This document shows positions 6,403 to 46,226 of a stretch of DNA of 64,000 bases, piece after piece; the first letter of the stretch is position 1; every line of letters starts with the position of its first letter. The notes beneath the pieces were generated by a model. It did no database searches, was not told the DNA's origin, and saw nothing but the letters and a program-made list of their open reading frames with translations. Made by a program: the position numbers and the translations under genes. The stretch comes from Mesaphorura yosii (taxonomy: Eukaryota; Arthropoda; Collembola; Poduromorpha; Tullbergiidae). The DNA lies in contig WIXG01000182.1 in the NCBI GenBank assembly GCA_009869945.1, positions 1 through 64,000 of the forward strand, given 5' to 3'.

Positions 6403-7983
6403 CTAGAGCTGGGGTTCGAGTTCAGACTCTGTTCCTGTACTTCCGCTGCCGAGGCTGCTGGGTTGGTCATCGATACCAGCAAATCGGACTCCGAGCTTTG
6501 GTGCAACTGGTGCTGGAGGCACGTCGTTCGCGTTCGGATCGCCACTAGCTTCTACTTGGCCTCTACTCTGATCCTGATAAAGCGGTGGGTACAGATTCTG
6601 GTTAGCCACTGCGTTGCTCGATGCCTTCGACCTGTGTCGGCTCCTTCGGCCGGACGAAGTTGCACTACTTCCATCAGCGCTGCTCGTGTTGCTACCCGTT
6701 CGTGGTAGCAGTTTCTTCTCGATATTCAGAGTCAGCGTGAGAATCTGATCGGGAGTCTCAAAATGCTGCATGAACGTCTCGGAACCTCCGAAACAGAGCC
6801 CTTCTTGGATGATGAGCGACGTCGGAGTGCGAATCGAATGGACGGGGCCACTCCATTTGACGTACGCGTACTTCTCTGGATTTTGGAAGACTAGAGTGCT
6901 CACAAATACGAAATTCTCGCCATAGCCACTCAGGCTGGAACCGGAGGAGTCTGAAGTGGATGGAGGAGTGGGAGTGTTGGCGTTGTGGCTGTGCGAAAGT
7001 TCCGGCGGCTGGACCCACACCCACGCCCAGAAATGTGGCTGCAAGAGGCATGTAATCGATGAGGACAGGACAGAATGGTCTGCGAAGTTAACTTACACGG
7101 CGAGCCTCTAGCATCAAGTAGAAATTACAGCCGTGGGCCTTGACGTAGTACGGCAGCCAGCGTCTGTCTACCGTCAGAGTATCCGTTTGAAAATTGACAA
7201 CTACAGGAAGACGATTTGTGCCGTGGACTTTGTGCGAGTCGATCAGATGGTCCATGAGGGATCGGTAAGGAATTGCGTCCTTGTCTGGAGTCAGGCAAGA
7301 GGGCACGATGCACTGAATGGGCCTGATGCATATGATTCCTTGTTAGAGAGCTCCAGCTTGGTCTTTGGTGCGAATCAGTAAAGATCAAATGTACCTGTAG
7401 AAGCAGGACACTTCGTGTAGTTTCATATCGCAGCCCTTCCACCGGAGGAAGATGCAGCCGTCGCTCGCGTAACGGCAGGGCTGAGCGTACTTCATGACGA
7501 ATTGCTCAGCAAAAATGTTCCTCGTGGTCGAGAAAGTCTCTGAACAAGCTGGACACTTGCTCGTCGTGTGTCGGCAGCTGGAGCACAGCAAATGACCATT
7601 TAAACATGGATAGATTGGCGGCACGCACGTGTTCTGACAAAGTGGACACTCCAGCTCCTTCAACGTGACGGAGATCTGCTGCATGATCAGCTGAGGAAGG
7701 CTTGTGCACGAAGGTCGAGATCGTGACTTGGAACGTTTCTTCCTGCTGCCATCGCCGGAACAAGCGCTTGTAAGCTGATTTGTGAAGGTGTTTACACTCA
7801 CACTGCTTGGAGTTACTCGACTGTGAAATAGCGGTCACAAATTACAAAGAAATGTGTTGTGCGAAAAATGAGAGCATTTCGGTACCTCGTCACATGAATG
7901 CGTGGACAGTGTAGGAGGCATACGTACCTGGTGAATGGCAATTTGCCGTGGCAAGAGATCCAGTCTCGCCATTTCCAGGGCAT
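6403..7983 (-). CDS. SIAH-like RING E3 ubiquitin ligase
   Basis: A probable RING-type E3 ubiquitin ligase of the seven-in-absentia class. Core exons are 7395-7820, 7097-7322 and 6403-7038. The RING is a C3HC4 with CPLC, YPCLNGH, LLCSSC and KCPAC. It is followed by a SIAH-type double zinc finger that crosses the first core intron (CRYASDGC, then QCIVPSC and MDHLIDSH). A TRAF-like substrate-binding half follows, with FWAWVWVQ. The C-terminus (about 100 residues) is Ser/Arg-rich and looks disordered. The frame upstream of the RING has no ATG until just before it. A small first exon at 7928-7983 supplies an ATG, the right phase and a GTACGT donor, giving 447 residues. That first exon is inference. 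The sequence is more divergent than true Sina/SIAH1, so it is probably a paralogue. Confidence 0.75.
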
Positions 7984-10544
<2,561 letters not shown>

Positions 10545-10975
10545 ATCGGGTTAGGGCTTGGGAACGCTTCTGTTCAATTAAATTATTGATTATGTTGAAT
10601 CCGAGATTAAGCTGCTAAAACATGCACGTAGTATTTTGTTTCGAGTGATTTTTTCAATGAAATGAGTGAACTGAATAAAAAAGTTGAATTTGAACGAATA
10701 CAAATGCATCCGTCTCGAATCTCTCGAACCCAACGCACACGATGAGTCATCCACTGAGTAATGAGTTCATTCCATGGCCTTGGGCCAAACCATGCGACGA
10801 TTTGCGCAAGCATGTTCACAATGCTGCGTCCATCGCTTTCGATTTAAATGTTCATTTGGTTTCTAGTTTCAACCGTAAGACATTCATAGTGCGATTTTCT
10901 CCCGACAATTGAGTTCCACGCTCCAGAAGTATGCGAAAAGTGCAGCTTCAGTTTGCAAATACATAAGGAAGAAGA
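10545..10975. other. Actin 1 to actin 2 spacer
   Basis: This 430-base spacer holds the actin 1 3' UTR with AATAAA at 10674-10679, then the 5' flank of actin 2. I see no gene. Confidence 0.55.
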
Positions 10976-12286
10976 ATGTCCGCCGCAGCCACAAGCACAG
11001 AAACGAAACCACTTGTAATTGACAACGGATCGGGATTCACTAAGGCTGGATTTGCCGGCGATGAAGCACCGAAGTCAATTTTCCCAACTATCGTCGGCCG
11101 TCCCCGTTATTCAGTAATTCATTTGTTTTAAGTGCGTTGTTGTGAAATAACAAAATTTTTCCCCATGAATTATAGAATTTTACATTTCCTGGGATGAAGG
11201 AATGGTTTGGTGGGGACGAGGCAGCCCGGAAGCGTGGAATCCTGACCCTCAAATACCCCATCGAGTTCGGCATCATTACGAACTGGGAAGCCATGGAGCA
11301 AGTGTGGTATTATACATTTTATGACGCGCTGCAAGTTGAGCCAGAACAACATCCGGTGCTACTGACCGATTCTCCACGGAACCCGAAGAAGAATCGTGAG
11401 AAAATGACTGAGGTTTGCAATTTGCAAGATCATGTAGCTCGTATGACGTAAGCCTGCAGGATCACATTTAATTCGATCAACTTGTTCACTGCAGGTAATG
11501 TTCGAGACATTCGTTGTACCCGAGCTGTACATTGAAATGCAACCTTCCCTGGCATTGCGTGCATCTTCACTTACAACCGGCGTCTTGTTGGACTCTGGCG
11601 ATGCAGTGACACACGCCGTTCCTTTTCACAACGAAATTCCCATCCATGGAGCCATCGAGCACCGCGACTTTGGCGGTCGCGACCTCACCACCTACTTCAT
11701 GAAGCTCGTTGTCGAAGGAGGCACGTATTACGCCCTGACTAACGCCACAAGAGACATTGCGCGTCAGATGAAGGAAAAAATGAGTTACGCGGCTGCCGAT
11801 TATCAGCAAGAACTGGTCAAAGCGACTACGGATCCTTCTTCGATTGAGAAAACTTTTGAACCTGTGGACATGCCACCTCTCACGCTGACGAAGGAGCGGT
11901 TCATGGTCCCAGAAGCCATGTTCAATCCAGAATTGATGCAGTTGGAATGCAGTGGAATTGCTCAGATTGTTTATAACTCCATTCAGAAGTGCCCTGAACA
12001 TATACGTGAGGACTTGTTCGCAAATATAATTTTGAGCGGAGGGAATACGTGCTTTTCAGAAATGGCTGAACGCCTCCATAAAGAGTTGAGCTCACTTGGG
12101 CCTACGGCCAGCTTCGACGTAAACATAATTGCACCAGAAAACCGCCAGTGCTCAGCGTGGATCGGCGGTTCTAAATTTGCATCACAAATTGAGTTTCAAC
12201 AAATGTGCATTTCCAAGCAGGAGTACTCGGAGTCGGGTGCAGCAATTGTGCACCGTAAATGTGGACGAATGCAAGATTCGAAGTGA
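10976..12286 (+). CDS. Actin 2, divergent actin paralogue
   Basis: An actin-fold protein that has diverged strongly from actin 1. Exons 10976-11113, 11176-11412 and 11495-12286 join in phase to give 388 residues. The nucleotide core is kept ([39 protein letters not shown]), as are the C-terminal WIGGSKFAS and IVHRKC. It has a longer N-terminus ([12 protein letters not shown]) without the acidic actin tail and nine extra residues at the C-terminus. The D-loop is replaced by [20 protein letters not shown], with an intron cutting exactly at this loop. Subdomain 4 has [18 protein letters not shown] in place of [18 protein letters not shown]. The frame is open throughout, so it is probably a functional, fast-evolving, perhaps tissue-restricted actin. 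It matches none of the conserved Arp families I recognise. Confidence 0.85.
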
Positions 12287-12342
12287 GGCTTAATTCGAAA
12301 AGCTGCAGTTGCGATTTATTGTTCCGAATCATCGTTGTTATC

Positions 12343-13438
12343 TCACACCTGCGGTCTTAAAATTAGGTCAGAGATTTTCTCAATTAAATTGCCTACTTCC
12401 GCTATGAATTGTGGTTTGAGTTCGTCGAATATTTCCATTGCATGCCCGTTGAGTCTTCGATTGATTATAGCGCCTGTGGAGGAAAGAAGAGATCAGAACC
12501 AAACTTTATTTTGTAGTTCATGAAACCAAAATTAGTGCAATGTTCAGTTAGTTCAGTAATTTATTGCATTATAATTTACCCAGCATTTGGTTGCCGTTGA
12601 ATAAATTCTGCATCTCAAGCTTTATGTGTTGTACGGTCATAGTTGAAGGCTTCCGGACGCGTTTCTCAGTTGTGTTCAGCTTTGCACGACTACTCAGTAT
12701 CTTCGTTCCATTAATTTCCAAGCCAAACAGTTCCATCCAAAATGGACCCTGCCCTTCTATTCTACGGAATACAGGTACTCCATCCCCGATCAGCGAGTAA
12801 TTGCCTTCAATTCGGATGCTGGGCACACTTATTCCGTAATCAAAGGTCGTTCGCCTGTTGTCGACATTTGTGATGACCTTCACCTCAATGTTGGATCCGT
12901 TGGTCAGATTGTGAATCACCACATTTGTGAAATTGGCTGCTATCGACATCGGGATTTGATTCTTGGCCCTGGCACCGGCGCTCCGTCCAAATTTGAACCC
13001 AAGGCGTTCCCCAAACCCCTCCACCGGATCCAGACGGAACTCACCAACCTCGTACGGATCCAATGGCGGAATGCAGAGGTCGGGAATTCCGGCAGCAAGC
13101 TGAGGTTGCAGTGACATCAACGTATCTTGAATGCAGCGATTCAGGCGTTCATCCAAGTCGGCACTGCTGTTGAATTCTTCCGACGGTAGAAGATGAATCT
13201 CTTTTGTCAGTGAGGTGGAGCAGTTCCCAAGTACAAGATTGCTATTTAATCCGCTATCTCTGGTAGGAGCCAATTCGGAGGCTGAGGCATACTCGTTTCC
13301 TGGTCCTGGGGACGTGTACGCCAACGCCAATTCCAGTGTTGGTGAAGCACTTAACAGCGCTATCACTACTAAGAATAGACCTGGAGATTTTAATTGTGCA
13401 CAGCTAAATTTCAGTCGTCTTTGTTTGAAGTGAAGCAT
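12343..13438 (-). CDS. Takeout / juvenile-hormone-binding-protein family, secreted
   Basis: A secreted lipid-carrier candidate of the takeout/JHBP family, whose members bind juvenile hormone or other hydrophobic ligands in haemolymph or sensory lymph. Two exons (12580-13438, 12343-12473) give 329 residues. The start at 13438 was chosen because it precedes a hydrophobic signal segment (LFLVVIALLSASPTLELALA). The family block reads LNRCIQDTLMSLQPQLAAGIPDLCIPPLDPYE. The C-terminal EMQNLFNG and, in exon 2, AMEIFDELKPQF are also family signatures. About 60 linker residues between the signal and the first family cysteine make it longer than the usual 240-260. It is convergent with actin 2: the stop codons are only 57 bases apart, and AATAAA on the minus strand at about 12315-12320 lies inside that gap. 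Confidence 0.88.
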
Positions 13439-14338
13439 TTTGAGAGCGAAATTGCAACAAATGCTGCTGCAGTTTGCCAACCTCTTTAAATCAGAAATGT
13501 GAGATAGGATGACAATAAATAAATTCAAGGGCCAGAAGAATGAGTGATGGGCAAAAAAGGAAGGCTTAGGATTTATTTCATCGTTCCAAGATTCCAACAT
13601 GATGAAGTCTTCGCCCATGAATTTAGGGGCAATGAAATGGCTGAAACGATATGAATGAAAACTCTCACTAGCTCAGCTATGAATTAACTCAAGACAAGAA
13701 AAGTATTCAAGATGAAAACAATTCGCTTACATACGAATTCATAGCTGTACCGCAATCTTGCACAATGCAAATTGCGAATTTAATTTCCAATTGTTTAGCC
13801 AAGCACAATGCGCAAGTAATTAAATGATTCAACTCATCGCATCGCACGTCGCATCCTGTGGATTTTCCGCTTATCTATTTATCGTATCTACGATCCTAGC
13901 CTACAAACCATGATTTACACCATACATGCAGTGCGAAGCATTGCGTTGCACAAGTTTTGAACTGACAACTGAACTTGAATCTAGCAATGAAGCAATGAGG
14001 AGTAGCGGTGCTCTGTTCTTTGGGGATTACGCACGCGAATTCCATGCATATCGTGCAATCAATATGATGACATGCATGATGGCAGTAAGCCCAATGCTAA
14101 CTCGCTTGTCTCTTGACATTGGTTCGTATTTTCGTACTTTTAATACTGATAAGAACGAGTCAGCGATAAGGAGAACTGGAGTTCTTGCATCAAACACTGC
14201 ACAACTCTCACCTCACACCTCACATCACTAACTTGAGTACAGTATCTCATTATTCCTTCTATTTCGCTTTTTTCAATCGTCGTCCCTCATTGTGTTTTGG
14301 TTTTGGTCACGATCTTAGATCCTTCGTCAGCTGATCGA
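13439..14338. other. Spacer between takeout-like gene and actin 3
   Basis: A 900-base divergent spacer that should contain both promoters. The minus-strand frame continues upstream of the takeout start for 60 codons, but those residues do not resemble the family and lie before the signal peptide. No other feature was recognised. Confidence 0.45.
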
Positions 14339-15654
14339 ATGGCAGCAATCGTGATTGACAACGGCTCCGGCGTCTGCAAAGCGGGCTTCACTGGCGAAGA
14401 TCAACCCCGCTCCGTTTTCCCTTCCATTGTTGGCCATTCGGTAAGTTAGCCAGCATCTATGTCAAGCTCTCCGAGTGGAATTGTAACTTATCTTGCCTCG
14501 TTTCTTGTGGTTGGATTGGAGCAAAATATTCGTACGTGGGGCACGATGCCCAGACCAAACGCGGGATGCTCACTCTCAAGTACCCGATGGAGCACGGAGT
14601 CGTCACCAACTGGAATGACATGCAAAAGATTTGGGCTCACATCTTCAGGGAGGAGCTGGGCGTACCAAGCGAAGAGCATCCAGTACTGCTGACGGAGCCA
14701 CCGCTCAATCCGAAAGACAACAGGGAACAGATGGTGCAAGTAAGTTTTAATTAATTTGACCGGCCTTCCGCTTTTCTGATAGTTTTGATCATCATTTAAT
14801 TTGTATTAATTTTCCCTAGATCATGTTCGAGAACTTCAACTCTCCGGCGGTTTTCGTCGCCATCCAAGGCGTGTTGTCGATCTACGCTTCGGGACGAACA
14901 ACTGGCGTCGTGCTGGAGTCTGGCGATGGCGTAACCCAAGCCGTCCCTATCTATGATGGCCGAGCCATCAAACCCGCTGTGCAGCGTCTGGACCTCGCTG
15001 GTCGCGACCTCACCGACTACCTGAAGAATATCCTCACGGAACGGGGCTACTCCTTCACATCCACTGCTGAGCGGGAAATTGTGCGTGACATCAAGGAGAA
15101 ACTGTGCTACGTCGCCCTCAACTTTGACAAGGAGCTCAGGCGAGCGACGAGATCGGATGCGCTGGAGAAATCATACGAACTGCCAGACGGTCGAGTGGTC
15201 ACGATCGGAAACGAGCGATTTCGGGCGTCAGAAGCGCTCTTTCAGCCACTATTCGTAGGGCAAGGAAGTGCCGGCGTTCCGGAAATGATTTACAATGCCG
15301 TGAGGCAGTGCGATGATTCAATTCGGAAGGTAAGCCTCAGAATTCTGTTGGATTGATATGCGTCTTGAAAATTGAACTGGCTTTTGATTGTGGTTTCAGG
15401 AGCTCTTCGCGAACATAGTCTTAAGCGGTGGCACGGCCTCTTTTCCAGGTATGGCTGAACGTGTGCATCGGGAAGTGACCGCTCTAGCTCCGGCTTCCAC
15501 ACAAATCAATATCGTACCCGTCCAGGAGCCGGTTTACTCCGTCTGGGTTGGAGGCGCTGTGCTTGCGTCGCTGTCAACCTTCCAAAAACGGTGGTTGACA
15601 AGACAAGAGTACGACGAGTACGGAGTTGATATTGTCCATCACAAATGTCCGTAA
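14339..15654 (+). CDS. Actin 3, divergent actin with shortened D-loop
   Basis: A third actin copy in tandem. Exons are 14339-14440 (or to 14444), 14522-14739, 14820-15329 and 15400-15654. It begins [21 protein letters not shown] without the acidic N-terminal tail. Most of the rest is close to actin ([57 protein letters not shown]). The D-loop is mostly missing: exon 1 ends VGHS and exon 2 resumes [14 protein letters not shown]. The best-looking donor, GTAAGT at 14441, gives a frameshift with the only good acceptor at 14520-14521. Reading stays open only if a weaker GTTAGC donor at 14445 is used. The gene is either spliced at a non-consensus donor or is decaying; the long open downstream exons favour function. 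Its 3' end lies 150 bases from the convergent SLC6-like gene. Confidence 0.8.
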
Positions 15655-20229: not shown

Positions 20230-21446
20230 TCTGATGCACTCAAAAGGTGGGACAGCCACGGAGTAGTACAATAATGATAAAAATAGTAGCAGCAGTCTGA
20301 TTAATTATATAAGACTTGCAATTTGGCAATATCGCCCAAAATGATTGGCGAATAATGCATGAACCCAATGCGAAAGGTTTGGACGTAAACGAGTTATATT
20401 CTGAACTCTGAACTGCGAATAAAGCGATAATTTTGTCTCCAAACATACAAATCATGCCACTCCTTCCAATTTCCGTGCGAATGAAAATGAATTCTTGAGC
20501 AGGTATTGTGGTACGTTGCAGTAGCACACAAAGGCGGTCGATATCCATTTAATTTGGGTGGTTGCAGACGATGGCGAGAGGAATGAAATTACTTTAATTG
20601 CATTCCACGTCGCACTGCTGTAGCAAGACACGTAAAAGTCAGATTAAATGTCACCCGGGTTGTCATTTTCTCCGTGGACCGTCACGAGTCTGATTGGGCA
20701 ATAGTCCGAAGAGGTCACCAGTCCGAATCGAAGTGCATGAGTCCGAAAATTCGAAAGATAATACAAAAGTGTGTAAAGTTCGAGAAGTCGGTTTATTATA
20801 AAAGCCATAAAGTCAGAATAATTACAAGAATTAGGCCCCAATAATGCTAAGAATTTTGTCATTTACACCAGGGTTCTTTGCCTGTGGCTAGCCGGTTGCC
20901 TTCAATGAAGTTCTTCTATGTATTCTGTATTTTCTCGTCGCATTTGGCATGCTTGAGTAAGTTTTGGACCAAATGGGACAAGCACCCCTTGAAGGTGTCA
21001 GGAAAAATTTCCTTTATGTCGTAACTGCAGCAAGTTCGGAATCGGAGACAATTGCCGGTGCAAAATTCTCTGCATGGCCCAATTTTCTTATTGTCAGTCT
21101 ATCTTAGGATAGAACTTTCGGACTCAATGCACTTCGATTCGGACCGGTGACCGTTTCGGACTCTTGCACTTTCGGCATAGTGCCCAATCGGACTCGTGAA
21201 TTCGGACTGGGAGTAGTTCGGACTCGTGGCAGAACCATTTTTTCGGTAATGCGAGACATGCATGAGTCGTTTAATCTCGCCTGCCGTTCATAATTGCTCG
21301 GTTGGCACGCGAGTTCTTAATTTATCATTCGCCCATAAAATATTATAATCCTTCTCTGTTTCGACACGAACATCGTCTAACGCTGGAACAATTGAACATT
21401 AAATTATTGGGGCCTTAGTCCATTTTTCGTTCGGCCGTTTTTGGTA
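20230..21446. other. Spacer with inverted-repeat element
   Basis: A 1.2-kb spacer between the neuropeptide gene and the first receptor. The main content is the inverted-repeat element described at 20682-21199. No coding sequence was recognised. Confidence 0.5.
20682..21199. repeat. Inverted-repeat element built from a GAGTCCGA word
   Basis: The left arm, about 20682-20757, and the right arm, about 21115-21199, are reverse complements with scattered mismatches. Shared blocks include CACGAG-C-GATTGGGCA, GTCCGAATCGAAGTGCA and GAGTCCGAAA. Within each arm the word AGTCCGA recurs several times. The right flank to about 21230 carries two more copies of TTCGGACT. The arms are about 80 bases and the centre about 360 bases, with no coding capacity. 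It looks like a non-autonomous foldback or MITE-type transposon. I could not fix a target-site duplication. Confidence 0.6.
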
Positions 21447-23180
21447 ATGGATCGTCCATCACGCGCTCATACTGTCGAAAATTATCTCTCCAAGTCCCAA
21501 CTTTTCCCTCCTGCCAGTGTGAGTCCAGTCCAGCCCGCCATCAGTCCAGCATTGTTCGGCCAAATGGGTTTAGAGGGCTACCTTCACTCTGGGAGCCATA
21601 AGCAAGCGTTATCGAGGAATGGAGGTAAGGTCAATTCAAGCGGTATCACCAAAGAACACACAAATGAGGACGACTCGAAACTGGAAGAGGGATTTGGCCA
21701 GAATCCATCACGATGTCCTGATTCGCTCATTCAATACGTTATACCAGCAATGAAAGTACTTCACTGGACTTTTATGATCGTCTCCAAGTTTCGGTATGAC
21801 GTCAAGAGTGGGATGTATGCCCGTGTTGATGATGGGCTACTTCGAAAGGTAAGTGCCACTCCTATGGCTGTTGTTTATAACTTTCTTAATAAAACGAAAA
21901 CAATTTTTGTACAGGCGATCGTAGTCCTTCTTCAACTTCTATCCGTCTTCTTCCTCTGGAACAACGTTAATCGCCTCACGTCTGTCAACGAGGTGCAGAA
22001 CAACCGGATGGGAATAATTTATCGGATTGCGTACATTTCGTTCGCGCTGCTCTCCGTAATACTATATTGGTCACTTTGGTCACATCGTGAGTGTATTCGC
22101 ATTCTCCTAGCTCGAGTTGAGGTGCTGGGCATAGAAATGATGAAGGATCCTAGCTGCAAGCTACCACGTCGAAGTCGAGTCAAGTACGGAGTGTGGGCAA
22201 CACTTGGGTTGTCTGGCCTTTACTCAGTGGCCTACACTCTGATCTTTGAAATAACACACGGCAACATGCAGGATCTGACCTCACCGACACAATTCTTAAC
22301 TGTGTTGGTGCGCGAGGCTGAACTGAACTTGTACTACGGCACAGGATGGATTGAGTTCAAAAACAGGACAGATTTACAAGAGTACAATGTCGGAGCAGCG
22401 ATACTCATTGGTGGTACATACTTAATCGTTGTGCAGTACCAGACTATGACTTGGATCTCAGCATTCGTCATGGTCCTGATCTGGGGCCTCCTATTCCGGA
22501 AGCTTTTCCAAACCTACTTTGAAATACTCAACACACATCGTACGAAGGACCGCTTCAAACTCCGCTACATTCGCCTATTTCAGAAGATCACCATCCTCAT
22601 TGAAGACTACAATCGAATATTCGGAATGAACATCCTCTTCGCCATCATATCCTGCATTCTCTTTCTGTCAATTAACGGATGGAATATGTTCACTTCCTTT
22701 GGGTCCAATATCGGGATCAATATAATGGTGGCCTACTCATGCGTGATGATCACCGTGCTTTTGCTCGTCTGCTCGGAAGTTAACAATATGGCGAATCAGA
22801 TGTCGATGGCCATCAAAATATTCTACCAACAACAGGGGCTCTGGAGACTTGCTTTACAAGACAAGTGTATAGATGAGGAACTCGAACTGAATATTCACTC
22901 AAGCGTCATGACCGTGGAGAGCTTCTTAAAGTGCGCGGAGGTGACGCAAGGCCTCAGCATGATCCAGCACGACCTGCAGGCTAATTCGATCGGGTTCAAA
23001 GGATACGGATTCTTCACAATCAGCTATTCGTTCATGGGAACAGTAAGTCGAGCCTTACGGAATTCTGATTCTGACCTGGACTCTTTTCGAAGCATTTCTA
23101 TTTCGTCTTTGCAGGTTATCAGTGTCCTCATCACGTACTCCATCATGTTCAATCAGTGGAGGGGAACGACAGGACTTTAA
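21447..23180 (+). CDS. Gustatory-receptor-like chemoreceptor 1
   Basis: A seven-helix membrane protein of the insect gustatory receptor (Gr) type, likely a ligand-gated channel in chemosensory neurons. Exons 21447-21848, 21915-23042 and 23115-23180 give 531 residues. The start is the ATG at 21447. About 100 hydrophilic residues precede the first helix. The strongest family mark is the last-exon motif ITYSIMFNQW, matching the Gr signature TY-5-QF/W. The short last exon joined in phase 0 is also typical of Gr genes. Both introns (66 and 72 bases) are multiples of three without stops, so the frame reads through. They were called introns because receptor 2 has splice sites at the same places and a stop inside its first. 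Receptor 2 downstream is a clear tandem duplicate (shared SEVNNMANQMSM-type block and GFKGYGFFTISYSFMGT). Confidence 0.82.
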   Translation: MDRPSRAHTVENYLSKSQLFPPASVSPVQPAISPALFGQMGLEGYLHSGSHKQALSRNGGKVNSSGITKEHTNEDDSKLEEGFGQNPSRCPDSLIQYVIPAMKVLHWTFMIVSKFRYDVKSGMYARVDDGLLRKVSATPMAVVYNFLNKTKTIFVQAIVVLLQLLSVFFLWNNVNRLTSVNEVQNNRMGIIYRIAYISFALLSVILYWSLWSHRECIRILLARVEVLGIEMMKDPSCKLPRRSRVKYGVWATLGLSGLYSVAYTLIFEITHGNMQDLTSPTQFLTVLVREAELNLYYGTGWIEFKNRTDLQEYNVGAAILIGGTYLIVVQYQTMTWISAFVMVLIWGLLFRKLFQTYFEILNTHRTKDRFKLRYIRLFQKITILIEDYNRIFGMNILFAIISCILFLSINGWNMFTSFGSNIGINIMVAYSCVMITVLLLVCSEVNNMANQMSMAIKIFYQQQGLWRLALQDKCIDEELELNIHSSVMTVESFLKCAEVTQGLSMIQHDLQANSIGFKGYGFFTISYSFMGTVSRALRNSDSDLDSFRSISISSLQVISVLITYSIMFNQWRGTTGL

Positions 23181-23949
23181 TTTTAAGTTTTTATGTCGAC
23201 GCCAGTTTCTTTCTTTGGAATTCAGAAACAACAACTAGTACAAAGGAAATCTATCTTGACAACTTAAAGAATCTAGACGTTAGGACATCAAAACCGTCGC
23301 TTGCGTTTCGCTTAATAATTTACGCCTAGTCATTTAACTCGACTGTAAGAATTTGCTCAGTACTTGTTATTTGGTTCAAGAGAATTGCCAAAAGAATTCT
23401 AAATTATTGAAATTCCATTGAGAATCCTTAATATCTTGTCCCTGTTGTGCTGTGTACCTTGCGCCTTGACGCTGTCTGGCCTGATGTGAAAATTATGATG
23501 TATCATACAATTATTTTGAGTATATGCACGGGCCATGCCGTAAGTCAGCCGTAATCGCACCAATCGGCACGATACTGTTTCTAGCGCTGTTGGGCTTGGA
23601 TCGATATCCATTTCGAGCCCATTTATTGGCCTGGATATTTTATGAGTGCTGTAGAACAAGGCGTGTGTCGTATTTTAATGAAGCTTCGTAGATTTGGCCC
23701 AAATTACAAGTTTGTGTTTGACACGAAAAGGTCAGATTAAATGTGGTCTTATGATAATTGTTTCGTATGCCATCCCGAACTTGACCTTCCAGCTTTCTGA
23801 CAATATAATTAGTCAGGCGATTTCTTGTTCGCTCAGCACGCGAACTTCTGCTTTTACTTGACATTCGCACGAGGGCGGTAAGAATAAAGGAACAGAAACT
23901 GAAACGTTATCAGTCATCAAACTTGTGCCTTGCGTACTTCGGCCAAACC
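23181..23949. other. Spacer between receptors 1 and 2
   Basis: This 770-base spacer should hold the receptor 1 3' UTR and receptor 2 promoter. I saw no gene or repeat. Confidence 0.5.
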
Positions 23950-26108
23950 ATGGAGCGTTCAACCGCAAAAGATTCTTGGCTGCTGCACAATCTGGAGAGC
24001 GACTACGATAAGAAGCGGACCATGCACAGATCGAAGAATATATTTAGCCGAGGTTACGACCGTAGCCATAGTGTGAGTCCACTAAGCATTATCAATTCAA
24101 CAATCAGCCAGAGAGGCGAGGCTCGTGCGGTCAACGGTGGCCTTCACATGAAGAACAAGATGGGCGACTCCAATCAGAATGGCATGCCCGTCATGGAAGC
24201 TGGTGAATGTTTAGCGGATGGCCTGCTTCAGTTTGTGATGCCTGCTCTGGAATGCTGCTACTGGACATTCCTGACGCATTCCAGGTACAGGTACGACTCT
24301 GAAATGCGGACGCACGTGAGGGTTGATGGCGGAAGGACGAGAAAGGTAAGTTGAGCTGCGAGCTTCTTACAAAACACGTTAATCGAAGGGTCAAGTTCTC
24401 AAGTTCGAGATACTTCATTCAAATCTTCCTCAGGCGATCACACTCCTTCTCCAAGTCTCATGTCTATTCTATCTGTGGAGCAATGCCCAGCGCCTCACTT
24501 CATCCGCCATTGTGCAAAACAGCGAGTTCAGAATCATATACCGCGTCATGTACATTTCTTTCGCATTGTTGTCCGGAAGTTTTTACTGGATTCTGTGGCA
24601 CCATCGACAATGCATCAAATGGATCCTAGGGCGAATTGAGGAGCTGGCACTTGAGCTTCTGAAGGACCGTCATTGCAAGCTGATCACTCCGAATCACGTC
24701 AAGTATAGCGTATGGGCCATACTGGCGACGTCTACAACCTACTCGCTTGCGTACACCGTCGTGCACGAGATCATGCATGGAAACATGCCGGCATCACCAG
24801 TACAATTCTTGAGGAAATTGGCGTACGAAGCGGAAATGAATCTCTATTACGGGACCGGATTGATCCAGGAACCAACAAATGTAACAAGTAGTCAACACGG
24901 GGCGGTAACAGCGGCCTTGATTGGAGTCCCGTACTTTATCATCGTCCAATATCAAACAATGACCTGGCTCACTGCCTTCGCCATGATCGCACTTTGGGCG
25001 GCTTTGTTTCGAACGGTTCTGAAAACGTACTTCACATCGCTAAACAAGTACCGGACGACCCAACAGTTTAAGCTGAGGGTAGGCTGATTCTGAGTATTTT
25101 GTTTGAGTCTGTCTTATGTATGAAATCTTGCAGTATATCCGAATTTTCCACAAAATCACAATCCTCATAGAAGATTACAACCGGATATTTGCGCTAAACA
25201 TACTCTTCTCAATCCTGTCCTGCTTTCTATTTCTGTCGGTCAACGCTACAAGTGTGTTTACATCATTCCGCTCCAATATTGCTCTGCACGTGCTGATTGG
25301 ACTAGAGTTTGTGCCCATTATGACGATTCTCGTCGTCTGCTCCGAAGTTAACAGCATGGCCAATCAGATGTCGATGATTGTCAAGATTTACTACCAGCAA
25401 AAGAAATTGTGGAGGCTCACCATTCACAGTGATTCCGTCGACAGCAGCAGCAAGAAGGCGATTCTACGAGAGTTTATCGCGACTAGTTTATTGCCGAGTC
25501 AAATTATCGCAGTGCCCGATTATTGAAAATCGACAGTTTATCGTGGAAAAAATCACCAGACAACATTGCAGAACGCAGTTTATTGCAGGTCAAATTATTC
25601 CTGGTGAGGGGGAGTTCATTGCGGGGTGGCCCCTTAGGCTATTTTTAGGTCGGGTGAGGGGTGGTCCATTGCGGGTGGCAGTTAGGGTTCAGGATTTTTT
25701 ATCATCGATAATTTGACCTGCAATAACGTTGTCCAGCGATAAATTTTTCTACGAGAACATGTCGCTGGCAATAATTTGGCACTGTGATAATGTGACTCGG
25801 CGATAAACTGTTCTCGCGATAAACGGGCTGCGATAACGAGTCGTGCAACGCAAGAAGGCACAGGAGATATCACAGGGGCTCGGAATGATTCAGCATGACC
25901 TGCAGGCCGGTGCGATCGGTTTCAAGGGATACGGCTTCTTCACGATAAGCTACTCGTTCATGGGAACCGTAAGTCAATAATGTCTGCCTACGTCAGACAC
26001 TCAAGTCGATTTTATATTTCGTAATTTTTAATTGTTCGATAGGTGATTAGCGTGATGATCACGTACTCGGTCATGTTTCATCAATGGAAAGGTACGGCTG
26101 GACTTTAA
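23950..26108 (+). pseudogene. Gustatory-receptor-like 2, coding exon split by a transposon
   Basis: A tandem duplicate of receptor 1. Exons are 23950-24345, 24434-25078, the interrupted exon 25134-25459 continuing at 25860-25975, and a last exon at 26042-26108. The sequence keeps the family features, with IEDYNRIFALNILFSI, SEVNSMANQMSM and the C-terminal ITYSVMFHQW. A 390-base inverted-repeat element (25460-25849) is inserted in the third coding exon, flanked by the 10-base duplication GCAAGAAGGC. Reading into the element reaches a stop at about 25526, before the final helix. I see no splice pair that would remove the element cleanly. The flanking exons have no other damage, so the insertion is probably recent. 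It could be a polymorphic null allele. Confidence 0.75.
25460..25849. mobile_element. MITE-like inverted-repeat transposon inserted in receptor 2
   Basis: The left arm (about 25460-25600) and right arm (about 25700-25849) are diverged reverse complements. Shared blocks are GTTTAT(T/C)GC, CCGAGTCA-ATTATC-CAGTGCC and TTATTGCAGGTCAAATTAT. Within the arms the word TTATCGC recurs many times. The 100-base centre has an imperfect direct repeat built on GTGAGGGG and TTGCGGG. The element is flanked by GCAAGAAGGC at 25450-25459 and again at 25850-25859, an exact 10-base direct repeat interpreted as the target-site duplication. It has no coding capacity. A duplication of 9-11 bases is typical of Mutator-like elements; 8 would suggest hAT or P. 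Confidence 0.75.
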
Positions 26109-26396
26109 TCAAGGAATGAAATATCGGTTGTGGTTTAGTTGTCGCAAATTGATAAACACAGTTTTGTTTTCGAAATACAAGTCAATTTTCGTTTTAAACA
26201 TCGATTTCCCTTCAATTTTGTGGTGTTGATACTGCACAGTCTGTTCAAAGTCTACATTTTCAGATATTTTTAACATTTTATTATTTTTCTTTCGAAACAT
26301 AAAATACTTTAATTTTTCCAATACTCGTTGCCCGATTGGGTAATAAAGCGGCGATTGTCGTGTTTACACTGACCTGAGTTTTGCATAAAAAGGCGA

Positions 26397-27738
26397 ATGA
26401 AATCATCCTCCTCGACCAGCTCAGCTCCAGCTTCGGCGACTACACAAAGAAAGATGAGTTCCTGCCCGATCAAACCCCGAGTCGAGTTTCCATTCAAGAT
26501 CGCGTCCTCTTACTTCCGTTTCACATCCAAAGCCCTGGATGGAAGTCCCTTTCCCTGGCCCGTGTCGGATTCAAACAAAATATACAACCCACTCTCGATC
26601 CTACCGGACAAATTTCATCGACGAGTGTTGTGGTATGTCCACAGCTTGTATCAGGTCGCATACACGCTTTTTCTGTACGTGAGTCTGTCAAGGCACGCGA
26701 AGGAGTATGTTGAGAATAGCCAATTTGTTGCTGCCGTGCTTCACATCACTTGGTGCCTGGGACATTCTGTCATCTCAACCATTCGCATTCATCAGCTGCG
26801 ATGCAACCACGAAATGCACACCGCGTTTAATCAAATCTACAAGTTCGCAGCCCGTGCAACCGGTAAGAAAGACGTTCTCACTGTCCTCGCCTGTAATTAG
26901 GAGCATATAGCATATTTCTGTTTTAGAAAAGGACCCGGTCTTCACAGCCACATTTTTGAAGCGATGGCGAATCTACGACAAGGCGTCGGTGATCCTATTC
27001 CTTGTTGTGATCTTCGGGTCGATATCTTACGCCGGCTTCGTGGTCGTTTTCCCTCTTCACAAGCGCTACTGGTACCTGCTCGTCCTCCCCGGCAATTTTC
27101 AAATCAATTGGGTTGTGCTGCTCTTTCTTTTCGTCATTGAGTGTGCATACGTCAGTTCCCAGTGGGCGACTTTCTGCGCGGAGAACTTTCTTAGCATCTG
27201 GGTCATCGACACGATGGGAACAACTCTACGTCTGCTAAACAAGAAGAAGGCTGACCCTGCCGTCCCAATTCTGGAACTCGCAAAGATGTTCCGGGAAGTT
27301 CAGATTCTGAACACATTCTACCAGGAGGCGTTCAGTGGCCCTTTTGGAGTGCCTGGTTTCAAATTCCTTATCACCGTCACGGGCTTAGCCTGTGTCTCTG
27401 TCGGCATTCGGCTCTCTACTGACGTGCACCCGATCATCACAATGTTCCTGGTCATCGCGTCCTTCGCCTGTGTTGTGGTGCTTGGACTTCTCCTTCCGCT
27501 CTCAGCCGAGGTGTACGAGAACACCGCTGAGTTTGGGTTTCCCAACTTCGCGTACGCGGAATCACAAACACATGCCCGTCCGATTGCGAAGAGAATCGCG
27601 GAGAGCTGCAAGCCATTTGCGATCAGAATCGGGGCGCTGTACTACATCCACGGAGGCACTACGCTCACTTTTCTCAGCCTCTTTCTGGGGAGCCTCATCA
27701 ACATTTTAATTGGCATGAGTTTTTATTCGATAAAATGA
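26397..27738 (+). CDS. Chemoreceptor-like 7TM protein 3 (second Gr-like type)
   Basis: A multi-pass membrane protein of 425 residues from exons 26397-26862 and 26927-27738. The first helices sit around the YVHSLYQVAYTLFLYVSL and VLHITWCLGHSVISTIR segments, then KRWRIYDKASVILFL. The C-terminus ends with a helix TTLTFLSLFLGSLINILI. That arrangement (long loop before TM7, small polar start of the last helix) resembles a divergent Gr, but the TY-5-QF motif is absent. It is clearly paralogous to receptor 4, which lies tail-to-tail 163 bases away. It is unlike receptors 1 and 2 in sequence. A polyadenylation signal is at 27791-27796. A Gr-superfamily chemoreceptor is the best guess; another 7TM family is possible. 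Confidence 0.68.
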
Positions 27739-27901
27739 ACAATTTCCTTTGATCCGATCCGATTTCTTGACTTTCAATTTCCGTTGGTCCAATAAAAATA
27801 CTTTTGTCTGTTCTTCAATCTGCGTATTGATTATTGGTTTGCTGAATTTGTTCTACAATGCTGGTTATGCAACAAGCAAATAAAACATTTCGTAATCCAT
27901 G

Positions 27902-29326
27902 CTAATCAACGACAGAGTAGAGGCTCATTGTGAGCAAAATATTGATAAGCGAGCTCAGAAATAGACTCATAAAAGTTAATGTCGTTCCTCTTCTGATGTC
28001 ATACAGGTCGGCAATCTGAATTGCATAAGGCTTGAAGCTTGAGATCAAGTCTCTAGAAAATGCTGGTCGAGATCGATAGCTGGACTCCTGAAAGTTCGGA
28101 AAGCTGAAGTTTGATGTCCTCTCATGAACTGCTGCGGAGAGTGGCATGACGAGACCCAGCAGGCAGACACAGCAAAGCGCGCCAAACAAAAGCAAGACGA
28201 GGAGGATCGGATTGAGCCGAGTTCCGAGTCGAATTCCAACTGATATGCAGGCCAGGGCCAGCAAGGAGGCTCCCAGCTTGAGTCCAGGCAAACCAAGCGC
28301 GCCTCCGTACGCGTCTTTGTAAATAATGTTGAGGATTTTGATTTCATGGAACGTCTTGGAGAGTTCCTCGACCGAGTACGTCTTAGTGGGGTCTGCCTTC
28401 TTTTGATTTAGTACTTTAAGAGCAAGCCCCATTGTGTCGATTATAAAGACGATGATGAAGTTCTCCGTGAAGAACGTCGACCAGGCGCCAATTATGAAGG
28501 AGAACTCGGTGACGAAGAAGAGAGCGAGCCAGGGCCAAGAAGTGCGACAAGGCAGTACGAGTAGGTACCAATACCGTTTGTGGTGAGGAAAGAAGATGAT
28601 GAAGGTCGCGTACGAGAGTGCGCCACCCGTAATCACGAGGAATGGCAGAATCATGAGCATGTCATAGATTCGCCAGCGCTGCCTGCATCGGGTTGCGAAG
28701 TTCGGATTGTTTTCTGTGACGCAGCAAATTAAAACGGAATAAATCCTACAGTCTACGCGAAGCGGCAGGCGAAACTTACGAATTTCCTGCACAGCATACT
28801 TGTACACCGAATTGAATGCGAAACATAGCTCGTGAGTGCTTTTTGTCTGATGCATTCGGATCGTGGAGATGATGTAGTGGCCGATGAGCCAGATGAGGTG
28901 CAGGACGAAGGCCACAAATTTCTCCTGAGCGATGTATTCTTCAGAGTGCACGTAGAGGGTCACAAAGAGGAATACGGTGTAGGCCATTTCGTACAGAGTG
29001 GTAAGGTACCAGAGAAGTCGCTTTGTGGCTGGCGTGGCGGGGAGAACTCCGACCGGGTTGAACATATTCTCTGGGTTGGCGACATCCCACGTGTAAGGAC
29101 TGGAACGAAGGACGGCGCACGAAAATCTGTAGAACGCTGCAGTGTTCTTGAAAGGAAATCTGGTCGGAGTCGGGATGACGATTGTATCCATGCCAGTGGA
29201 ATGTCTCCAGAGAAGCAAGATCGGCCAGTGAATTCTTTGAAAGCAAGCTAGCGATTGTGGCGCGCGCCTGTGAGGTCGACGCTTTTCAAGTCCATTGGCC
29301 AATAAAGTTTTGTAATTTGTATACAT
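27902..29326 (-). CDS. Chemoreceptor-like 7TM protein 4 (second Gr-like type)
   Basis: This is the paralogue of receptor 3 in convergent orientation. Exons 28780-29326 and 27902-28713 give 452 residues from the ATG at 29326. An internal methionine at MDTIVIPTPTRFPFKN aligns with the core start of receptor 3, so a 407-residue product is also possible. Shared blocks include ISTIR-HQ, RWRIYD, HKRYWYLLVLP, IDTMG and the last helix GTTLTFMSLFLSSLINIL. The single intron (28714-28779) is 66 bases, a multiple of three and stop-free, at the same position and phase as in receptor 3. Its 3' end lies close to receptor 3 and its 5' end faces torso. Confidence 0.68.
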   Translation of the reverse strand: MYTNYKTLLANGLEKRRPHRRAPQSLACFQRIHWPILLLWRHSTGMDTIVIPTPTRFPFKNTAAFYRFSCAVLRSSPYTWDVANPENMFNPVGVLPATPATKRLLWYLTTLYEMAYTVFLFVTLYVHSEEYIAQEKFVAFVLHLIWLIGHYIISTIRMHQTKSTHELCFAFNSVYKYAVQEIRKFRLPLRVDCRIYSVLICCVTENNPNFATRCRQRWRIYDMLMILPFLVITGGALSYATFIIFFPHHKRYWYLLVLPCRTSWPWLALFFVTEFSFIIGAWSTFFTENFIIVFIIDTMGLALKVLNQKKADPTKTYSVEELSKTFHEIKILNIIYKDAYGGALGLPGLKLGASLLALACISVGIRLGTRLNPILLVLLLFGALCCVCLLGLVMPLSAAVHERTSNFSFPNFQESSYRSRPAFSRDLISSFKPYAIQIADLYDIRRGTTLTFMSLFLSSLINILLTMSLYSVVD

Positions 29327-30939
29327 TATCGTGGATCCTACGAGGTTAAATTGCGTAGTCGTTTGAAATAGACTTGGCCAAGTTTAGTGTGACTTCGAGA
29401 CTTTGGTGAAGTTCAAATCGATTCGGGCGATTCGGGGACTTTTGCACTCACGAAATGAGGCAATGATGAGACAGATTAATGTTTCATGTTGTGTAAACTG
29501 AGGAACGATTGACGTGCTTGATTTGCTTTTGTGTACTGCTGATTACGAGCACATCGGCTTTAATAACTACTACTGATTCTTTACTTTATTTCCATAAGCA
29601 GCACGAATGTTTCGGTCACTGGGTATTCGATAATACGGACTTTTAGTTCAATTAGATGGTATTTAGTTAGCCCTGCATAATTTGTCCTTTACCTTGATAG
29701 AGACCAAGAAGTAACGATGTCCACTTGGAGAGTACACGAAAATGCCATTTCCGCAATCCAATTCTCGTGCAGTTAAGTTCTAGGTGCTCAATAGCACTTT
29801 GTAAATTATGCAAACGCTTTTGTCAATTCTCGCGAATGCAAAATGGGAACTCGTGTTGAGTTTGTGAAACAAGGCTTGAAATTGCTAAATCCAAGTTAGC
29901 AGAAGAATAAGAAATAACGAAATGGTACAGGCAAAGAGCGTAAAACATGGAAAATATTTACTCAGTGATTTCAATGAGAATGAGAACGATAGCTTGTGTT
30001 GTATAGATCTCCATAACTAATTAGAAATAAACATTTCGTACTTAAAATTCTATAAAATGGCTCGAGTAAAGATAAAACTTAACTTTCTCCTTTCATAATT
30101 GGCAATTCTAAATTCACATATTATCACCTACTCCCAGTTTTCAATCACATCATTCAAAGTCCAGACTCAAGGTTCAAAGTTAATCACAAAATACTCTTCC
30201 TAAGACTAATAAGTAACTAAATTATAATAATTAAGGTTAAGATCAGAGGAGCCCGTTGACTATTTCCAGTCCTGTGAACAGGGATCTGAGGAGATCGGTG
30301 GTTAGTGAATGGCACGGTATGGTTAATGTAATAATTAATTTTAATTTGACAAGATTTAAGATTACATAACGTGTGAGATCAAGATAAAAGTGGAAAATAG
30401 TTTTATCGGCTATTATTATCATATCAGTTTCAGTCGTCTGGTGTCGTGATCGCAGTCGCAATCAATACATACCGTCAATTAAAAAACTGAATGAGACATA
30501 GATCGGACGATTGGTTGTGGTCAATTAATTTACTGCTGAGAAGAATGTTAAAGGTTATCAAGAACATTCAAACGGGGATCAAATGCCACACTCTCATGTT
30601 CTCACCAACATCATTACAACTTATTAGATGACTGATTAAGGTTACAAGGACCGTAATTAGCCTAGACTGGCAAGAATTGTTACAAATCGTGCGACAAAGA
30701 TATTTACTTAAACATTATTAATTACTAATGCCTTGTCAGTGGAAAATTAAAAACATGAATGAAAAACGTCGTCTCGTCGTAAACAAGTAATAAAATACTT
30801 AAATACTTGGCTTAGTACAAAATATAAGCATGGTGTCCGACAAACGAAGTCTAGCTGGTCTGCCCACACGTGCCAGGACGGCGCATATCCGCACGTCAAA
30901 GAAGTTCGCTCATTGATCGCCGATCGTTGCCACTGACCT
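29327..30939. other. AT-rich non-coding stretch, receptor 4 promoter and torso 3' UTR
   Basis: This 1.6-kb AT-rich region has no open frame with protein character. The half near 30939 is probably torso 3' UTR and the half near 29327 receptor 4 upstream sequence. No repeat or RNA gene was recognised. Confidence 0.5.
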
Positions 30940-43889: not shown

Positions 43890-43895
43890 TTTATT
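43890..43895 (-). terminator. Polyadenylation signal of the metallothionein gene
   Basis: AATAAA on the minus strand, about 97 bases past the metallothionein stop codon. It is the first canonical signal downstream and is suitably placed. Confidence 0.6.
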
Positions 43896-43991
43896 TGTTT
43901 AATAGTAAAAATGTCGTAGAAAAATTCCGCAGAAGCCAATTCCTTGCAGAAGCTGCCGTCAAGCCATGGCAGATCAAGCGATGGTAAATGA

Positions 43992-45808
43992 TTACTTCTT
44001 GCATGCACAGGCTCCACATTTGCAATCGGTGCATTTGCAGTCGACGCATTTGCAGGTCGCACTTTTCCCAGAAGCTGTGCACTTGCAGTCACCACATTGA
44101 CAGTTGGAACCTGAGTGAAGAAAACAGAATGCTCAATTAGCCTTCTGCCTCACTTCCTACGTTTTGAAGGCGGTGGAGTTGATTGAATCTTACATTTGCA
44201 ATCAGCGCATTTGCAGCTTCCGCTCTGGCCACAGTTGCAGGTCGCTCCACATTTGCATCCTGAGCACTGACAATTGATGCAGACGCAGCCAGCCCCTTTG
44301 CCACTGGGACCGCATTTGCAGTTGACGCATTTGCAGTCAGCACCTACGACCATAGATTATCAGATTATAAGTGTTCTGGTACAACAACTGAAGGAGTTCT
44401 TTTTCTGTTAAGCTAGACTTACATTTGCAGTCCACGCCGCACTTGCAACAGGCGCAGGCTGCCCCACATTTACATCCTGAGCACTGACAGTTGACGCAAA
44501 CGCATCCAGCTCCTTTTCCACTGGGACCGCATTTGCAATCCGCACACTTGCAATCAGCGCCTGTAAAATTAAGTGCAAGAGATTGGATATTGATTATGAT
44601 TGTGCAAGGTAAATAACATCAATAAATGAAAAGTCTTACATTTGCAGTCCACGCACTTGCAATCGCCGATTTTTCCACAACTGCACTTTGCTCCGCATTT
44701 GCACCCTGAACACTGGCAGTTGACGCAGACACAGCCAGCTCCTTTGCCACTGGGACCGCATTTGCAATCTGCACACTTGCAATCAGCACCTGCATTAAAT
44801 CAACGAAATCAAATTTAGACACTGCCAAAGTGCTACTTCATAAGGCCATATGTAAGTAAGTGTTCTGTATACAAGACTATCAAGACTTACATTTGCAATC
44901 AGCACACTTGCAGGCACCGGCACAGGCACAACTCGCTCCGCATTTGCAAGCGACGCAACGACAGTTCACACAGACGCAGCCAGCCCCTTTGCCACTGGGA
45001 CTGCATTTGCAGTCGATGCACTTGCAATCAGCGCCTAGATATATAGAAATTGCTGTTGAGTACGACTTGAGAACAGAATGAACTTCGACTTCAATTTCTA
45101 CAATTAAGGTGGCACTTACATTTGCAATCAACACATTTGCAATCGCCTTTTCCGCAGCTACAACTTGCCCCACACTTGCAGCCAGAACACTGGCAGTTGA
45201 CGCAGACACAGCCAGCTCCTTTGCCACCAGGACCACACTTGCAGTTGACACACTTGCAATCAGCACCTGTAACCCGATAAAAGAAATTTAAGAATCCTGC
45301 AATCCCGCGTCAAGATAACTTGGCAAGTGCTTGTCAGGATTCCCGAATCTTACATTTGCAATCTGTTCCACATTTGCAGCATGTGCAGCTCGCTCCACAC
45401 TTGCAACCAGAGCACTGACAATTGACGCAGACGCACCCGGCTCCTTTGCCGCTTAGACCACACTTACAGTCGGCACATTTGCAATCAGCGCCTGGAAGTC
45501 ATACATGTTCCAATTAGCTTTGAGCAATGAATGGAAATATAAGTTCCAGATAAGCAGGAAATCTTGACTTACACTTGCAGTCGGTGCATTTACAAGTTGC
45601 ACTTGTACCGCATGCACAAGACGATCCGCATTTGCTGCCGGGTCCACAGTTGCATGAAGCTCCGCATTTGCAGTCGACACACTTGCAGTTGGCTGTAGAA
45701 ACAGAATTCAGATAGAATGAGACTTGTGGCTAAAATTAGGATTCTCAAGATCTCACTCATAATTCTTGGGGTTTGGAACTTACGTTTGTCGCACGCTTTA
45801 GCAGACAT
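43992..45808 (-). CDS. Multi-module metallothionein, 376 residues
   Basis: A cytosolic cysteine-thiolate protein expected to bind zinc, copper or cadmium. Nine exons: 45784-45808, 45573-45692, 45354-45491, 45120-45266, 44891-45034, 44640-44789, 44423-44560, 44194-44343, 43992-44110. Every intron is phase 1 and splits a cysteine codon. Exon 1 encodes MSAKACDK; exon 2 is a divergent 12-Cys module; exons 3-8 are six homologous modules of 46-50 residues; exon 9 is a 13-Cys end module finishing GACACKK. Each central module follows the same plan: CADCKC(A/V/I)(D/N)CKC, G-SGKGAGC, VC-NC-C, GCKCGA-C, and a variable tail of five cysteines, 16 in all. I count about 122 cysteines in 376 residues. Lys pairs with Cys throughout and aromatic residues are absent. 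Typical arthropod metallothioneins have 40-80 residues, so this is an internally expanded form. Confidence 0.93.
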
Positions 45809-45950: not shown

Positions 45951-45958
45951 TTTTTATA
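45951..45958 (-). promoter_or_regulatory. TATA box of the metallothionein gene
   Basis: TATAAAAA on the minus strand lies 143 bases upstream of the ATG. The proximal metal-response motif starts 19 bases further upstream, the expected order for an inducible promoter. Confidence 0.7.
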
Positions 45959-45976: not shown

Positions 45977-46217
45977 CCGTGCGCAATAGGGAAGCGTTGT
46001 CCCATCGAGTCGTCCGCTATCGCAAAGGGCCGTGTGCAATTCGTCCGTTAATCAGTGGTTTTGCACACGGTACGCTAACCTCATCCTCTTCATACGTGCT
46101 AAAAAGTAGCGTCCCGTGTGCAAAACTGTCTCTTTGCACACAGGACGCTACTTTTCCTATACGCTCATACGTGCTAGAAAAAGCGTGCCGTGCGCAAAAG
46201 GACGTCGATGCACACGA
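45977..46217. promoter_or_regulatory. Cluster of seven metal-response elements (MREs)
   Basis: Motifs matching the MTF-1 core TGCRCNC(GG) occur at 45977-45985 (-), 46030-46038 (-), 46062-46070 (+), 46114-46122 (-), 46135-46143 (+), 46188-46196 (-) and 46209-46217 (+). The first is TGCGCACGGACCC, close to the full consensus. The last six form three inverted pairs. The pairs at 46102-46155 and 46178-46226 lie in longer palindromes. CATACGTGCTA at 46091 and 46166 shows that the block was duplicated with a 75-base period. The cluster is upstream of the TATA box and should make the gene metal-inducible through MTF-1. Confidence 0.8.
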
Positions 46218-46226
46218 AACGCTTTT

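Follow-up and report, generated by a model that had tools for sequence, protein, structure and literature searches.

Introduction

Classical metallothioneins carry about 15-30% cysteine in C-x-C, CC or CCC motifs (PMC9781358), and the family has also been defined by a lack of aromatic residues and histidine (PMC1913499). A described protein close in scale to the one reported here is OdiMT2 of the tunicate Oikopleura dioica, which has 399 aa and 123 Cys in six repeat units, each built on a t-12C plus 12C plan. The repeat number of the Oikopleura protein ranges from 3 to 7 between populations and is described as directly related to its capacity for binding divalent metal, and the same genome holds a short sister, OdiMT1, of 72 aa and 20 Cys (PMC8283569). 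A paper on snail metallothioneins, citing an Oikopleura reference, mentions a gene type with the repeats in one large exon. The same paper reports the 9md-MT and 10md-MT forms of Alinda biplicata, in which one domain type has been tandemly multiplied and is accompanied by a distinct C-terminal domain; the 9md form has 287 aa, and its domains are of 9 Cys as counted from the printed consensus (PMC7084494).

Within the open-licence literature covered here (titles and the beginnings of abstracts), no arthropod metallothionein described as multi-domain was found among the matches listed, and the springtail gene MTC of Folsomia candida appears there only where it is used as a biomarker. The paper that introduced MTC (2010) is said to describe it as much longer than an ordinary metallothionein and of repeated sequence. 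In other papers, MTC is a metallothionein-like gene that is up-regulated by silver (PMC5097105), is described as differing strongly from the other metallothioneins of Collembola (PMC3060125) and, in a 2019 paper, is called unique in F. candida (PMC6512762).

Here, we analyze a gene in a 64-kb window, the whole stretch of DNA under study, that a first-pass annotation had read as a giant modular metallothionein, and we compare its structure, its modules, its promoter and a short paralogue with these described systems.

Results

One gene with one cysteine-rich module per middle exon

The minus strand of the window holds a nine-exon gene (45808-43992) whose spliced open frame encodes 376 aa, 122 of which are Cys (32%), in agreement with the roughly 122 Cys in 376 residues counted in the first-pass annotation. 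All eight introns are GT..AG introns of 79-101 nt and all eight are of phase 1, as the annotation had also noted. Exon 1 (45784..45808) encodes MSAKACDK, with a single Cys, followed by the first base of a split Pro codon, and is alike in the paralogue described below; exon 2 (45573..45692) encodes an N-terminal module of 40 aa and 13 Cys. Six middle modules follow, namely exon 3 (45354..45491, 46 aa), exon 4 (45120..45266, 49 aa), exon 5 (44891..45034, 48 aa), exon 6 (44640..44789, 50 aa), exon 7 (44423..44560, 46 aa) and exon 8 (44194..44343, 50 aa), with exons 3 and 7 belonging to a CC-containing subtype. Each middle module has 16 Cys, a count that takes in the last Cys of the module, whose codon (T|GY) is split by the downstream intron. 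Exon 9 (43992..44110) encodes a C-terminal module of 38 aa and 12 Cys, the number also found in the last exon of the paralogue, and ends in a TAA stop; about 90 bp past the stop, matches to the ATTAAA and AATAAA motifs (43890..43903, minus strand) mark candidate poly(A) signals. The annotated arrangement of six successive exons, each with one 16-Cys module of 46-50 residues, between divergent end modules is thus what the spliced frame contains. In the protein, most of the Cys stand in C-x-C motifs among Lys (53 residues), Gly (52 residues), Ala and Asp; Phe, Trp, Tyr, His and Glu are all absent, the only Met is the start, and the mass of the chain, by arithmetic from its composition, is ~37 kDa.

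Every module is itself the size of a metallothionein, and tandem metallothionein genes occur in other animals, two points in favour of several short genes in tandem instead of one. This reading is barely credible, given that none of the seven exons from 2 to 8 contains an in-frame ATG or stop, that a single Met is present in 376 residues and that the MRE cluster described below lies upstream of exon 1. In addition, the internal exons begin and end within codons split at the splice sites, and these split codons force splicing. We therefore rejected separate tandem genes, in view of the missing internal ATG and stop codons, and treat the locus as one gene. Since all of its internal exons are 1-1 symmetric, the frame is kept with any subset of them, and modules could be gained, lost or skipped without a frame break, as the first-pass annotation had argued.

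The modules diverged long ago under constraint on the protein

To compare the modules, we aligned seven rows, the six middle modules of the giant gene and the one middle module of the paralogue on contig C113. All 15 Cys columns that fall within exons are Cys in all seven rows, with the Cys of the split codon as the 16th. Module subtypes differ in how their last four or five Cys are spaced, and the alignment gaps were placed there, in the last third. Among the six modules of the giant gene (15 pairs), the three codon positions differ at 56, 69 and 303 of 683 sites each (8%, 10% and 44%), and the 339 differing codons comprise 238 synonymous and 101 non-synonymous differences. Nei-Gojobori dN ranges from 0.043 to 0.147, while dS is 0.7-3.2 in seven pairs and not calculable in eight, such that 13 of the 15 pairs have a dS that is >1 or not calculable. 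The modules were copied long ago, and selection has acted on them as protein. Given this age, the array did not expand recently, and variation in module number between individuals is not especially favoured. Unequal crossing-over may take place at the present day.

These values also bear on the possibility that the locus mainly gives rise to shorter isoforms by alternative splicing, with exons 3-8 skipped or used in a mutually exclusive manner and the full six-module protein perhaps rare. The symmetry of the internal exons, any subset of which would be in frame, and a GTAAG inside exon 3 at 45467 are consistent with such isoforms, as is the precedent of an earthworm metallothionein locus with duplicated exons that are reported as absent from the final transcript (PMC12783039). 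Pairwise dN is low in every module, however, even in exon 5, which has the highest values (0.106-0.147), and none of the modules therefore looks abandoned; moreover, the product of mutually exclusive exon use would closely resemble the 128-aa paralogue. We consider predominantly short isoforms unlikely, though partly compatible with a single gene for a multi-module metallothionein, the reading that we retain.

Two further candidates for the origin of the array were examined and rejected. The first-pass annotation had named an assembly artefact as a finding that would overturn it. This is unlikely, as is a very recent expansion, since the modules are 75-87% identical in DNA (15 pairs) and the introns only weakly alike. 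For the 21 pairs of introns 2-8, z against base shuffles is 0.9-4.0 (z>=2 in 15 pairs and z>=3 in five), and part of this similarity must come from common splice signals and composition. We also considered a higher-order block duplication pairing exon 3 with 7 and exon 4 with 8, as the former two have the CC subtype in common and the latter two VNCKC, but DNA identities and intron scores lend no support to a consistent block.

The upstream region is dense in MREs

Of two TATA-box matches within 600 bp upstream, the nearer (TATAAA, 45953..45958, minus strand, motif match only) is 150 bp before the ATG. Seven MRE cores (TGCRCNC) are distributed over both strands at 45979..46215, all of them within 410 bp upstream, and five have the form TGCACAC. 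Six of the seven make up three divergent (back-to-back) pairs; the two cores of a pair are 30, 19 and 19 bp apart, and successive pairs follow each other at 84 and 74 bp. We simulated 2000 sequences from a first-order Markov model of the 500 bp upstream; they contained 0.72 MRE cores on average and 5 at most, and none reached the seven observed. The window as a whole contains 44 MRE cores (0.69 per kb), and the cluster of the giant gene is its densest 300-bp stretch. For comparison, the metallothionein of Orchesella cincta, a protein of 77 aa, likewise has an MRE-rich proximal promoter, and the TGCACAC core is conserved between Orchesella metallothionein promoters; the MREs reported there are all sense-directed, whereas those of the giant gene occur on both strands (PMC1913499).

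We also observed, at 46058-46226, inverted repeats with MREs in their arms, three of them 18-23 nt long and a weaker fourth of 42 nt. Repeats of 23 nt (96% complementary) and 18 nt (83%) enclose the second and third MRE pairs, respectively, while a 20-nt repeat (95%) joins pairs one and two, and the 42-nt repeat (71%) joins pairs two and three; these repeats were counted without a chance control. Because of the inverted repeats and the recurring MRE pairs, the MRE promoter unit itself looks to have been copied.

The genome also holds a short paralogue

We searched the window's own genome (93.0 Mb in 1127 contigs) with five queries, the counts of which are lower bounds. The exon 6 module gave at least eight matches, seven in the giant gene and one on contig C113, and with the four further queries these two remained the only loci among the matches listed (at least two loci). 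The gene model on C113 (6098-7248, corresponding to 4099-5249 of L010) has four exons (6098-6122, 6733-6810, 6881-7036 and 7121-7248) and encodes 128 aa with 39 Cys, arranged as an N-terminal module of 10 Cys, one middle module of 16 Cys and a C-terminal module of 12 Cys. All of its introns are of phase 1, a feature it has in common with the giant gene, along with an MSxxxCxx start and split Cys codons. Upstream of the C113 gene, there is a TATA match at -199 and two MREs are present within 300 bp, with an overlapping MRE pair directly before the ATG; at the settings used for the promoter of the giant gene, no inverted repeats were detected.

The end modules of the two genes give a mixed picture. 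The C-terminal module on C113 is identical to its own middle module at 30 of 37 positions, compared with 23 of 38 for exon 9, while exon 9 aligns with the C113 C-terminal module at a score of 151 and with exons 3 and 6 at 146 each. These similarities indicate that the modules have been homogenised to some extent or have changed separately, and they make a three-module ancestor plausible but not proven. Judging from the sequences, the simplest history would be one in which the symmetric middle exon of such an ancestor was multiplied to six; the opposite direction, with module loss in C113, is possible.

Class assignment

In profile searches, Pfam gave no match above cut-off in eight queries, five of which had no hit of any kind; the sub-cut-off hits were to PF12749 (E 3.8 for exon 9 and 2.1 for the C113 middle module) and PF02067 (E 8.6 for exons 1-2). 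NCBIfam, a library that serves bacteria and archaea, had no match for the two proteins, and in viral contigs five pattern matches to the module were seen, none of which was confirmed as a relative. Metallothionein chains without metal lack stable structure. In PDB, there was no match to exon 6 at E 1, and the C113 protein had one non-significant match (E = 1), to an eggshell-membrane Cys-rich protein.

As no curated profile matched, the protein is called a metallothionein on the grounds of its composition, its C-x-C pattern and its promoter. The Cys content of 32% on a C-x-C plan conforms to the classical composition, and the giant protein also conforms to the definition by absence of aromatic residues and histidine. 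At 376 aa, it exceeds the classical size limit (<100 aa); given this size and the lack of a curated profile match, it is filed by its features as a multi-domain rather than a classical small metallothionein. Accepted multi-domain metallothioneins also exceed 100 aa (PMC8283569, PMC7084494). The predicted spliced frame has the tandem copies of a Cys-rich domain in one chain that characterize modular metallothioneins, and the C113 model provides the shorter form in the same genome that is typical of them without being required.

The PDB match of the paralogue would be in line with a Cys-rich structural or secreted protein of the cuticle, silk or eggshell type, as opposed to a metal store, and structural proteins can also have repeats and high Cys. 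Such a function is very improbable for the giant protein. Its MSAKACDK start has no hydrophobic stretch resembling a signal peptide (by eye), its Cys mostly occupy C-x-C motifs surrounded by Lys, Gly, Ala and Asp, aromatic residues and His are absent, and the region upstream is dense in MREs, all of which argue against a structural or secreted protein.

Other observations in the window and genome

Elsewhere in the window, a long frame on the minus strand (12569-13672) encodes a JHBP (haemolymph juvenile hormone binding) domain (E 4.1e-26), and several frames that look actin-like by eye, some of them divergent, are located on the plus strand at 8945-15356. Four long multi-pass frames at 21396-29383 resemble chemoreceptors of the gustatory type by eye, and none of the four reaches a Pfam family at E 0.001. 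In the genome, 61 pieces match gustatory receptors of the 7tm_7 family at E 0.001, some of them below the cut-off. Odorant receptors (7tm_6) had no match, in a search whose controls gave no signal for that family, and the assembly likewise gave no match to COX1. Springtails are reported to lack odorant receptors (PMC6080948). The combination of JHBP and 7tm_7 without 7tm_6 is compatible with, but does not prove, a host among the non-insect arthropods, for instance a springtail.

Isopenicillin N synthase is a springtail marker. In F. candida, its presence has been reported (PMC5490193). The genome has 13 matches to PF03171, and isopenicillin N synthase was recognised in none of the 10 loci whose frames were read by eye, one of them also searched in PDB, which makes for a weak test. 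Three of the 13 matches, L029, L030 and L031 (contigs C764, C1065 and C722), are 2-oxoglutarate/Fe(II) dioxygenase matches. The best PDB matches of the L029 frame are plant-type dioxygenases (E 3.7e-42), compared with E 2.4e-10 for the best isopenicillin N synthase; the match to plant enzymes possibly reflects horizontal transfer or an unrelated expansion. At a further locus, L032 (contig C759), two adjoining long uninterrupted frames are dioxygenase-like and histone-deacetylase-like by eye, and these may point to a bacterial contaminant contig.

Discussion

The locus very probably represents one gene for a metal-inducible, multi-module metallothionein in which the middle exon has been multiplied. 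The first-pass reading of a giant modular metallothionein is well supported, and the short paralogue and the MRE promoter, which were added to it here, strengthen it. The gene structure, the constraint on the modules as protein, the MRE enrichment and the paralogue were all observed; from them we infer transcription, metal binding, control by MTF-1 and the direction of change. In the mechanism that we propose, Cd, Zn or Cu would activate MTF-1, which would then bind at the upstream MRE cluster, an induction suggested by the MREs. A single nine-exon message would be produced from the gene, and the encoded chain would fold around metal, every 16-Cys module building one or more metal-thiolate clusters of its own in the manner of beads on a string. 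In metallothioneins, d10 ions are held by C-x-C arrays within metal-thiolate clusters, each divalent ion taking up ~2.75-3 Cys. The estimated load would be ~41-44 ions for the 122 Cys of the giant protein, compared with ~13-14 for the 39-Cys paralogue. Most likely, the gene grew from a three-module C113-like ancestor, whose single middle exon, being symmetric (1-1), was duplicated in tandem until there were six; metal capacity would have risen in this way while the frame was kept. The two genes could serve as a before-and-after pair for testing how capacity scales with module number, and the giant gene is a candidate metal biomarker.

A more far-reaching version of this reading is also conceivable, though we regard it as doubtful. 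The gene could be an independent arthropod giant metallothionein that arose as exons were amplified strictly one per module and the MRE-pair promoter was multiplied alongside, such that both capacity and responsiveness would be tunable and module number or splice-in may vary by individual or metal load. If true, this would amount to an exon-count rheostat for detoxification.

How, then, does the gene for a modular metallothionein described here relate to known systems? Multiplied metallothioneins had been taken by the first-pass annotation as established for some molluscs; that is correct for molluscs, but the tunicate OdiMT2 has to be added (PMC8283569). Given OdiMT2 and the published springtail MTC (PMC8283569, PMC3060125), the novelty implied by the annotation was too strong. 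Large repeat metallothioneins arose in both tunicates and molluscs, and the present case overturns nothing. OdiMT2 resembles the giant protein in scale, and its short sister OdiMT1 parallels the C113 gene; it differs in its Cys plan and belongs to another phylum. In a comparison made by description rather than by sequence or exon structure, MTC resembles the giant gene as an arthropod metallothionein-like gene. The Alinda forms share with the giant gene the tandem multiplication of one domain type and the distinct C-terminal domain, but their genes are intronless and most of the copies differ at two positions only (PMC7084494).

The multi-domain metallothioneins of Biomphalaria glabrata and Crassostrea virginica are similar in another respect, as exon duplication has been proposed as the source of their domains. 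In B. glabrata, which also has an MRE promoter, the first two domains match exons; the protein differs in having three domains and a C-terminal extension, and its third domain matches no exon (PMC5578137). In the giant gene, by comparison, each of the six middle modules corresponds to a single exon. With its short paralogue, it offers an arthropod case in which the amplification of domains exon by exon can be seen directly. Large repeated metallothioneins are already known, and what is distinctive here is the one-exon-one-module layout, which, together with the 16-Cys plan and a probable arthropod host, sets the giant gene apart from the systems compared here.
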